Origin: Sphingomonas anseongensis
GTDB lineage: Bacteria > Pseudomonadota > Alphaproteobacteria > Sphingomonadales > Sphingomonadaceae
Assembly: GCF_023516495.1 (NCBI RefSeq)
Contig: NZ_JAMGBC010000001.1
Location: 1,884,501-1,948,500 of the forward strand
Length of the DNA stretch: 64,000 nucleotides
Reading direction: 5' to 3'
The notes beneath the pieces are model-generated. The model did not search any database, was not told the origin of the DNA, and saw only the letters and a list, made by a program, of their open reading frames with translations. This document shows, piece after piece, positions 19,722 to 25,071 of this stretch; position 1 is the first letter of the stretch; every line of letters begins with the position of its first letter. Position numbers and translations under genes: made by a program.

Positions 19722-19970
19722 ATGATTGGAAGTGGGGGGCGCGACCTCGAGGAAGTGATGGACTTCGATCCCGAGGAAGGGATCGCCAATCTCGAGGAGC
19801 ATCTCGACCGGTTGAAGTCGCAGGCCGCATCGGCGGGCTTCCAGTTCGACCGCCACGCCGCCCGCAACGAGCTCCAGGCGGCGACCTTCGGGAAGACCAC
19901 GGCCGGCAAGGCGCGGCTGCTGCTGTCGCCAAGCGGCGCGATCGCCATCGAACTGAAGACCTGCGGCTAA
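19722..19970 (+). CDS. Small protein of unknown function
   Basis: An 82-residue acidic N-terminal part ([20 protein letters not shown]) is followed by a basic helix and a [20 protein letters not shown] beta hairpin. I recognise no family. The ATG at 19722 is taken; a GTG at 19689 would add 11 residues. It is divergent from the M19 gene and its stop overlaps the stop of pdeM by 4 bases. Codon use resembles the neighbours, which supports it being real. Confidence 0.55.
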
Positions 19971-20629
19971 GCGGCGATCGGGAATCGAAGCAGCCGGTCG
20001 GCGATGGGAACGAGAGCGACGGCTTCGCCGCTGATCGCCCGAACGATCTCCGGGTGGCGAACGTCGAGGCCGCCGGTCAGCGATCCGAATGCCGGAAGAA
20101 TCAGCTTGCGATCGGAGGCGACGAAGCAGCGGCGCGAAATCCGCCGCCCGTTCATGCTCAGCCGAAGCTTGGGGTGGAAATGGCCGGAGATTTCGGCGCG
20201 AACCTCGTCGGGTCGAGCCTCGTGGCGAAGGAGGATCGCGCCGATCTCGACTTCCTCGACGACGGTGCCGCCGCAATGATCGGCGAAGCTCGGGTCGTGG
20301 TTCCCGACGATCCAGGTCCAGTCGAGGCGGCTGGTGAGGTCGAGGAGAAGCTCGCGAGACTGGGCCGGGAGCCGGTCGCAGCCGAAGCGGTCGTGGAAGC
20401 TATCGCCGAGGCAATAGAGGCGGGTTGCGCCGGTCCGCTCGACTTCCGCCGATAGCGCCGTCAGGGTCGCATGGGAATCATAGGGTGGAAGAAGCTGCCC
20501 CAACCGCGCGAACCAGCTCGCTTTCTCCAGGTGCAGATCGGCCACGAGCAGCGCCTGACGCGCCTGCCAGAAAAGCGTGCCGGCAGCAGAGGGGACGAAC
20601 GTTTCGCCTGCGAACGAAAGGGGAACCAT
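19967..20629 (-). CDS. pdeM: Ligase-associated DNA damage response endonuclease PdeM
   Basis: The 220-residue protein is a calcineurin-like phosphoesterase with VADLHLEKASWFA, GDSFHD, VGNHD and SGHFHPK metal motifs, in the arrangement of the ligase-associated PdeM family. It is the last gene of a minus-strand run with the DEXH helicase. ATG 20629 is preferred to the in-frame TTG at 20635. The family is named for co-occurrence with an ATP-dependent DNA ligase, which is not present here. Confidence 0.88.
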   Translation of the reverse strand: MVPLSFAGETFVPSAAGTLFWQARQALLVADLHLEKASWFARLGQLLPPYDSHATLTALSAEVERTGATRLYCLGDSFHDRFGCDRLPAQSRELLLDLTSRLDWTWIVGNHDPSFADHCGGTVVEEVEIGAILLRHEARPDEVRAEISGHFHPKLRLSMNGRRISRRCFVASDRKLILPAFGSLTGGLDVRHPEIVRAISGEAVALVPIADRLLRFPIAA

Positions 20630-20646
20630 CGCCAAGCTTTAGAGCG

Positions 20647-21096
20647 CTATTCCATGCTCCGATAGTGGTCTCGGAGCGAACGCGCATCGTGGAGCGCGTT
20701 GTGCGGCACTTTGCTGTTCGCCGCCGTGCTGAAATTGCTCAGCGGCAGAAGCCGGAAGGTGACGTCGCGAACGTCAATCATGTCCCCGGCGCCGGTGATC
20801 ATCAGGTTGCAGAACTGGGCGATGTCCTCCGGCCAGTCGGCGATGATGACGGCCTCATCGTCGTGGCGAAGATAGCGCTCGACCGCGCCGGCGGCGTCGC
20901 TCCGGCTGAGGCGCGGACAGGTCAGCTGCTCGGGCACCGTGTCGAGATAGGGGACGACATGCCGCTGGACCCATTCGACGATCGGCTCGTCGGTAGCGAG
21001 CGTGACGTAGAGTTCTTCGCCGTCGTCGGGGACGAGCGCAAGGCTCAGGAGAGCGCCGCAATTCCCATTATATTCGGTGTCGAGGAAGTAGCGCAC
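20647..21096 (-). CDS. Rv2179c-like 3'-5' exoribonuclease (DEDDh)
   Basis: The 149-residue protein begins RYFLDTEYNGNCG, the DxE motif of DEDD exonucleases. It ends with VPHNALHDARSLRDH, which has the HxxxxD of the DEDDh group. An internal Asp (DWPEDIAQF) completes the set. Size fits the short Rv2179c-like family. The start is GTG 21096, directly after the stop of the lipoprotein gene. It lies between that gene and pdeM in the DNA-repair run. Confidence 0.82.
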   Translation of the reverse strand: MRYFLDTEYNGNCGALLSLALVPDDGEELYVTLATDEPIVEWVQRHVVPYLDTVPEQLTCPRLSRSDAAGAVERYLRHDDEAVIIADWPEDIAQFCNLMITGAGDMIDVRDVTFRLLPLSNFSTAANSKVPHNALHDARSLRDHYRSME

Positions 21097-23833: not shown

Positions 23834-24009
23834 AGGCCGTCGGTCCCCTCGCGGCGGCGCTCCTCTTCCTCGGCATAGCCAGCCTTGGTCGCGTCATAGG
23901 TGGTCTTGTCGGAGCCTTTCGAGCGCCGGAGGAAAACCAGCCAGATGAGCGCGAGCAGCAGCACCACGGGGAGGATGATGTCCATTACCCACCACCAGAC
24001 TTTGTCCAT
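23830..24009 (-). CDS. 59-residue single-pass membrane protein upstream of the DEXH helicase
   Basis: Read from ATG 24009 behind a perfect GGAGGA ribosome site, the product has a Trp-rich start (MDKVWWWVMD) and one membrane helix (IILPVVLLLALIWLVFL). A basic stop-transfer (RRSKGSDK) and an acidic-basic tail (AEEEERRREG) follow. It is divergent from the exonuclease gene with 54 bases between starts. Its stop overlaps the CTG start of the helicase. I recognise no family. Confidence 0.7.
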   Translation of the reverse strand: MDKVWWWVMDIILPVVLLLALIWLVFLRRSKGSDKTTYDATKAGYAEEEERRREGTDGL

Positions 24010-24063
24010 GCTTCCTCCTTCTCGAACGGAACCGAGCGTCGTTGTCGGTTACTATAGCTCGCA

Positions 24064-25071
24064 ATGGCGCGTTTGGGTTCCTGGATCGAGGTCTTTCCCG
24101 AGGGCATCTATGTGCGCCCCGCCGACGCCTGGGTCGATCCCTCGCAGCCCAAGCCGAGGGCGCTGATCACTCATGGCCATGGCGACCATGCGCGCGGCGG
24201 CCATGGGGGGGTGCTGTCCACGCCCGAAACGCTTGCGATCATGGGGCTCCGCTACGGCGTGCAGAACGGGCAGCCGTCAGCCTATGGCGAGACCGTCCGG
24301 GTGGGCGAAGTCGACGTAAGCTTCGTTCCCGCCGGTCACGTGCTCGGCTCGGCGCAAATTGTCCTGGAGTACAAGGGCGAAAAGATCGTTGTTTCGGGCG
24401 ATTACAAGCGCCGCGAGGACCCGACCTGCCACGAGTTCGTGCCCGTCCCATGCGACGTGTTCATCACCGAAGCGACGTTCGGCCTGCCGGTGTTTCATCA
24501 CCCTGACACCGGCGGCGAGATCGACCGGCTTCTCCACCGACTCCATTCGGACGAAAGCCGCTGCGTGCTGGTCGGCGCTTATGCGCTCGGCAAGGCGCAA
24601 AGGGTCATCGCCGAGCTGCGCCGAAGAGGGCACGAAGAACCGATCTACATCCACGGCGCGCTCGAGAAGATGTGCGCGCTCTATGAGGAGCATGGCGTTG
24701 CGCTCGGCGAACTTCGCCCGGCGACGGGTGCGACGAAGGACGAGCTTCGCGGCCGGATCGTCCTCGCTCCGCCCGGAGCGTTGAACGACCGCTGGTCGCG
24801 ACGTCTCCCGGACCCGGTGACGGCGATGGCGTCAGGCTGGATGCGGATCCGCCAGCGCGCGCGGCAGGCGAACGTCGAGCTTCCGCTGGTCATCTCCGAT
24901 CATGCCGACTGGGACGAGCTGACGTGCACGGTCCGGGAGCTGGAGCCCAATGAGGTGTGGATCACCCACGGCCGCGAGGAAGCGCTCAAGCATTGGTGCA
25001 TGACCCACCAGATCAAGGCGTGCGAGCTTAATCTGGTGGGCTACGAGGATGAGGACGAGGACGACGGCTAG
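24064..25071 (+). CDS. Ligase-associated DNA damage response exonuclease (MBL/beta-CASP)
   Basis: The 335-residue protein has the metallo-beta-lactamase motif THGHGDHARGG, further ligands in VSGDYKRREDP and FHHP, and beta-CASP features (VLVGAYALGKAQR, then ISDHADWDEL). It matches the exonuclease named for its link with bacterial ATP-dependent DNA ligase and resembles CPSF/Artemis-type nucleases. In other genomes the ligase gene usually follows. Here the next gene is a convergent L,D-transpeptidase whose stop shares CTAG with this one. Confidence 0.88.
   Translation: MARLGSWIEVFPEGIYVRPADAWVDPSQPKPRALITHGHGDHARGGHGGVLSTPETLAIMGLRYGVQNGQPSAYGETVRVGEVDVSFVPAGHVLGSAQIVLEYKGEKIVVSGDYKRREDPTCHEFVPVPCDVFITEATFGLPVFHHPDTGGEIDRLLHRLHSDESRCVLVGAYALGKAQRVIAELRRRGHEEPIYIHGALEKMCALYEEHGVALGELRPATGATKDELRGRIVLAPPGALNDRWSRRLPDPVTAMASGWMRIRQRARQANVELPLVISDHADWDELTCTVRELEPNEVWITHGREEALKHWCMTHQIKACELNLVGYEDEDEDDG

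Follow-up and report, generated by a model that had tools for sequence, protein, structure and literature searches.

The locus at positions 19967-25071 of the window (the whole stretch of 64,000 nucleotides from Sphingomonas anseongensis that was analysed) is best interpreted as three of the four parts of the known LigB / Lhr-Core / MPE / Exo repair system, with the probability of about 85%. Under this interpretation, the TIGR04120 ligase was split off by a rearrangement and very probably works in trans, the four genes form two modules, and a DEDDh-type exonuclease gene with an adjacent lipoprotein gene is a clade-limited addition. The locus itself is mostly an ordinary, rearranged one with two extra genes; the strict pairing of exonuclease and ligase, as against a core of helicase and PdeM, is the more interesting outcome.

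Composition of the locus

The pdeM gene (19967-20635, minus strand), which encodes the metallophosphoesterase endonuclease (the MPE of the Lhr-Core cluster), matches TIGR04123 with 216.7 bits (cut-off 150), and a motif scan of its product identifies DLH, GDS, GNHD and GHFHP. The ligase-associated DEXH (Lhr-Core) helicase (21425-23833, minus strand) matches TIGR04121 with 1041 bits (cut-off 850; the score was taken on the open frame 21425-23869, and the gene probably begins at 23833) and contains the Pfam domains DEAD, Helicase_C, WH_Lhr and DEAD_assoc. The ligase-associated beta-CASP exonuclease, exo (24064-25071, plus strand), matches TIGR04122 with 452 bits (cut-off 325) and contains the motif HxHxDH. 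The three proteins, all of which were originally predicted here, accordingly score above the NCBIfam cut-offs for the ligase-associated DNA damage response, and the catalytic motifs of all three are kept, judging by patterns that we take to be the appropriate ones.

The helicase gene run and exo are divergent and separated by 54 bases (24010-24063). Between helicase and pdeM, on the same strand, there are a small lipoprotein-like ORF (21097-21378), with a weak match to NF038104 (30 bits, cut-off 50), and an ORF for a DEDDh-type 3'-5' exonuclease-like protein (20647-21096); a 59-aa single-span membrane protein (23830-24009, minus strand) is encoded directly upstream of the helicase. Downstream, exo overlaps by 4 bases a convergent L,D-transpeptidase gene (25068-26894, PF03734), in agreement with the original prediction. 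This gene separates exo from pgm in the window, and neither the stretches examined from 20 relatives nor the 80 nearest named loci yielded a homologue.

The cluster of genes for LigB, Lhr-Core, MPE (PdeM) and Exo is known from Pseudomonas putida and many other bacteria (Ejaz and Shuman 2018, 2019, as cited in portions of PMC8301817, PMC7437997 and PMC10140301). According to passages of PMC10140301, LigB ligases are typically encoded in an operon with an Lhr helicase, a phosphodiesterase and an MBL-fold protein, and the biological role of this widespread system, including the damage that it repairs, is unknown; a passage of PMC8301817 places MPE near blhr genes in 276 of 319 genomes. Part of PMC9611098 lists the helicase and the exonuclease in two Sphingomonas genomes; the portion of PMC10953399 consulted is background only. 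As in the described cluster, all four families are represented above the curated cut-offs, helicase and pdeM are close on one strand, and exo is divergent. Unlike the described cluster, the ligase gene is far away, the lipoprotein and DEDDh genes lie between helicase and pdeM, and the small membrane protein gene overlaps the helicase start.

The ligase is encoded elsewhere on the chromosome

A profile search of the genome identifies a full-length match to TIGR04120, with 771 bits (cut-off 400), in an open frame at G000:C1:1627253-1628842, with the ligase motif KxDG at residue 231. This gene is on the same chromosome, about 280 kb from exo and hence outside the cluster. The claim that the ATP-dependent ligase is absent thus holds for the immediate surroundings of the locus, which no ligase gene adjoins, but not for the genome; the genome-wide search, proposed along with that claim, excludes a missing ligase and corrects the impression of a ligase-free pathway that the window gives. 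Two other ATP-ligase-domain genes elsewhere in the genome give weak matches to TIGR04120 (92.8 and 66.8 bits). The possibility that the nearest relatives have a ligase gene immediately next to the locus was considered as well and rejected, such a gene being seen in only one (L224) of the 80 nearest named loci; these are the best 80 of more than 572 relatives of the helicase, from Sphingomonas and kin, and the flanks inspected extend up to about 6 kb, less at contig ends.

The helicase, PdeM and exonuclease genes are together, and the ligase away from them, in all three genomes of the genus of the window (in G145 the ligase is on another contig). In all three, the ligase neighborhood reads GNAT-Rid-SDR-DUF-DivK-ligase-cold shock-RNase D, interspersed with a few other genes, the product names being read directly off the ORFs. 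Six ligase loci of relatives, selected because exo and ligase lie 10-47 kb apart (G053, G129, G034, G043, G123 and G010), were compared with it. GNAT-Rid-DUF-DivK precedes the ligase in all six, and none has a match to the SDR; cold shock and RNase D follow the ligase in G053 and G129, cold shock is at the very end of the G010 stretch, and neither turned up in the G034, G043 and G123 stretches. Except in G129, this block lies beyond exo-pgm (five of the six loci), in the order pdeM-helicase<>exo-pgm-...-GNAT-Rid-DUF-DivK-ligase, with 10.0 to 13.6 kb from exo to the ligase. The ligase in the genome of the window therefore keeps the upstream block that sits just beyond exo-pgm in five relatives, which fits chromosomal separation better than a ligase-free pathway and supports one of the two options offered originally, a locus whose ligase moved away. 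Most simply, the chromosome was rearranged in the lineage of the window by a break that parted the pgm side from the GNAT side.

Exonuclease and ligase occur together across genomes

The four families were sought in 149 genomes of the family, including that of the window, with only members of each family counted and not the weak hits that other ligases and MBL proteins give. All four genes are present in 122 genomes, helicase and PdeM only in 15, the helicase only in one (G097, an assembly of 660 contigs), and none of the four in 11. The helicase count includes two fragments (G022 and G082), and the ligase count includes two genes below the cut-off, one cut by a contig end (G117) and one split over two frames (G083). 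The two parts of the split gene (G083:C2:98007-99583) score 399 and 352 bits, the frameshift being in the gene or in the assembly. Three of the 15 genomes with helicase and PdeM only (G018, G082 and G135) are less than 90% complete, and another, G046, has a weak match to TIGR04120 (E 2.9e-21) of the kind that other ATP ligases give. Neither an exonuclease without the ligase nor a ligase without the exonuclease was found among the 149 genomes.

Linkage differs between the genes. In the 122 complete sets, exo and ligase are within 10 kb of each other in 87, in 84 of these on the same strand with exo first, and within 200 bases in 66; in the remaining 35 they are farther apart or on different contigs (14 of the 35 pairs are on different contigs of draft assemblies). 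Helicase and exo are within 10 kb in 40 genomes of the family and divergent in every one of these. Helicase and ligase are within 10 kb in only 8 of the 122 sets; clustering with the ligase is typical of the system, not required.

The pattern recurs in a sample of 142 genomes of the class, two of which belong to the family of the window. At limits of E 1e-200 for the helicase, 1e-25 for PdeM, 1e-40 for the exonuclease and 1e-60 for the ligase, which admit some fragments and matches below the curated cut-offs, these genes are found in 53, 52, 37 and 35 genomes, respectively. Two apparent cases of exonuclease without ligase, G214 and G263, are ruled out because in each a divergent ligase, hidden by the E limit, directly follows exo (L030:10949-12424 and L031:5810-7303; 295 and 105 bits to TIGR04120, cut-off 400), perhaps representing a sub-branch missed by the curated model. 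All 37 exonuclease-bearing genomes thus have the ligase. Helicase and PdeM alone (at the exonuclease limit of E 1e-40) are present in 16 genomes, only one of which (G287) has any match to TIGR04120 at E 0.001, with 61 bits in a 982-residue frame; 89 genomes have none of the four genes, and G246 (84% complete) has helicase, exonuclease and ligase without PdeM.

These distributions also bear on the other option offered originally, a ligase-independent version of the pathway, in which the three linked genes would work without the distant ligase, the latter doing something else or working with the other ATP-dependent ligases. The separation of the ligase in all three members of the genus, the retention of helicase and PdeM without the ligase in 15 genomes of the family and 16 of the class, and the two further ATP-ligase-domain genes are compatible with such a pathway, but the ligase is present in every exonuclease-bearing genome searched (122 of 122 in the family and 37 of 37 in the class), and the ligase-less genomes also lack the exonuclease, whereas the window has it. 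With the expected ligase encoded in the genome, we consider this alternative very improbable. Ligase-less versions of the system exist, without the exonuclease too. The preferred reading is that the distant ligase very probably acts together with the locus, as suggested by the gene content of the genomes compared.

From the activities of the named families, the helicase would translocate 3'-5' and open damaged DNA, PdeM would cut single strands, the exonuclease would trim the ends, and the ligase would seal them. Trimming without sealing would leave breaks, which we propose as the reason for the joint presence of exonuclease and ligase. Fused exonuclease-ligase proteins, mentioned in a passage of PMC10140301, fit such a pair. 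The 15 genomes of the family and 16 of the class with helicase and PdeM and no such ligase indicate that this half does not necessarily require the ligase.

Common regulation by SOS boxes was considered for the locus and the ligase. The only exact site in the window of the type GTTCN7GTTC, which we take to be the alphaproteobacterial LexA box, is inside pdeM (position 20612), with about two per window expected by chance, and two looser matches before the ligase (L005:7067 and 7958) are taken for chance occurrences. Hence no convincing SOS box common to the locus and the ligase was found, and SOS control through this box was rejected.

History of the exonuclease-ligase pair

The presence pattern shows that exonuclease and ligase behave as one module, and helicase and PdeM as another. 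The 15 of 149 genomes with helicase and PdeM alone are natural one-module genomes that make the division of labour testable. We found no report of the co-occurrence of exonuclease and ligase in the literature; the primary papers on the cluster may contain one.

A tree of 136 helicases, built with FastTree and by IQ-TREE quick search and standing in for the species tree, requires at least 12 changes of the joint state of exonuclease and ligase, or 10 without G018, G135 and G097. Shuffled labels give 14.4 changes on average, so that this state is widely scattered. Some of the changes may be gains by transfer, gain and loss not being separable on the helicase tree.

An alternative account of the pairing is that it reflects inherited operon linkage only, with no functional need for one gene when the other is present. 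Because exonuclease and ligase genes are mostly neighbours (87 of 122 within 10 kb), one deletion takes both, and co-loss from such loci says little about function; the same-strand, exo-first order of nearly all close pairs and the short spacing of many are in line with this account. Against it, none of the 35 genomes in which the two genes are more than 10 kb apart or on different contigs has lost just one of them, and neither gene is present in G074, whose sister G142 (fork support 100) has the pair 42 kb apart. Both genes are also missing from G046, where no remnants were found and the locus, which keeps helicase-pgm-parA-Rid-DUF-DivK, has the layout of relatives in which the pair is separated, but the place of G046 in the tree is an open fork that also holds rows with the pair adjacent; the layout of G050 resembles that of G046, and several relatives of G050 have exo and ligase side by side. 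Loss at two sites is suggested for G074 and, less surely, G046 only. No remnants of either gene were detected above chance (best E 0.76) where synteny would place them in genomes with helicase and PdeM only (six examined for exo and two for the ligase). Altogether, linkage as the sole cause appears unlikely, and the reading of exonuclease and ligase as a module is retained.

The inserted DEDDh and lipoprotein genes

The predicted DEDDh exoribonuclease and lipoprotein genes are indeed located between helicase and pdeM, but the identity of the former relies on weak similarity and motifs. Against the RNase AS profile (NF033638), its product scores 23.5 bits, far below the cut-off of 200, and thus falls outside that family, and no Pfam family was detected at E 0.1. 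The closest PDB entries are exoribonucleases of the RNase AS / Rv2179c type, to which the N-terminal residues 1-80 align with E 1.4e-5 to 4.9e-5. The protein contains DxE (residues 6-8) and HxxxxD (residues 132-137), which we take to be the motifs of the DEDDh superfamily; both are also kept in relatives, DxE being present in 17 of 17 aligned rows and HxxxxD in 16, with the remaining row cut by a contig end.

In the survey of related genomes that the original prediction called for, the insertion is conserved in the nearest clade, whereas no such genes were detected next to the helicase in the remaining 64 of the 80 nearest named loci. The DEDDh gene follows the helicase on the same strand in all of the 15 nearest loci and in 16 of the 80 overall, including L185, with the lipoprotein gene between them in 15 of the 80. 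Next comes pdeM in L185 and in 10 of the 15 nearest loci; another three are cut off by a contig end shortly past the DEDDh gene. The remaining two, L169 and L170, have the DEDDh gene beside the helicase even though 6.0 and 3.4 kb of sequence, respectively, yielded no pdeM. One of the 15 (L177, S. edaphi) probably represents the genome that is counted as G145 in the family set. The insertion is thus real, stable and clade-limited, and it accompanies the helicase more strictly than it does pdeM. Among the 149 genomes of the family, 34 encode a homologue, which is located close to pdeM in just the three genomes of the genus of the window; in 27 it is away from pdeM (in many on other contigs of drafts), and G035, G071, G107 and G118 lack PdeM and the ligase-associated helicase.

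By analogy with full-length Lhr beside RNase T, the DEDDh protein might contribute to a modified pathway in this clade, as an additional 3'-5' exonuclease that was brought to the Lhr-Core helicase. Portions of PMC8301817 report that E. coli lhr adjoins the RNase T gene, and portions of PMC7437997 pair Lhr-Core with MPE and Lhr with RNase T. In both E. coli and the window, an Lhr-family helicase gene is beside a gene for a DEDDh-type 3'-5' exonuclease; unlike E. coli Lhr, the helicase here is an Lhr-Core lacking the C-terminal domain, and the similarity of the DEDDh protein is to RNase AS, the parallel with RNase T being one of gene arrangement. The constant position downstream of the helicase in the 15 nearest loci, the retained motifs and the association with the helicase even where no pdeM was found nearby all speak for recruitment. 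Conversely, the 31 other genomes of the family with a homologue have it away from pdeM (27) or lack PdeM and the helicase altogether (four), gene runs can carry unrelated genes, and the similarity is to an RNA-specific nuclease. On balance, recruitment into the pathway is doubtful, and the clade-limited addition of two genes is the preferred description.

A broader possibility, put forward tentatively, is that the system consists of two separable machines, a helicase and PdeM core capable of standing alone and an exonuclease and ligase add-on whose two genes, even if far apart, are retained or lost together, and that the core of one Sphingomonas clade also took in the DEDDh exonuclease and the lipoprotein, an independent parallel to lhr-rnt.

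Helicase start and the upstream membrane protein

In the three genus members, the helicase frame contains no ATG, GTG or TTG ahead of the conserved N-terminus, and CTG is the sole candidate; in the window, the probable start is the CTG at 23833. This candidate overlaps the stop codon of the gene of the small membrane protein (CTGA), which agrees with the overlap originally described but not with a fusion of the two proteins. Among 16 named loci, eight likewise have no ATG, GTG or TTG start for the helicase, and the other eight have at least one in frame, some of them far upstream. Immediately upstream of the helicase, a small hydrophobic ORF occurs at 10 of the 29 loci examined; one is also present in G046, a genome without exonuclease and ligase. 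Relatives of the 59-aa protein share an RNR/RNK and a TE.AT..LY-like stretch past the membrane span.
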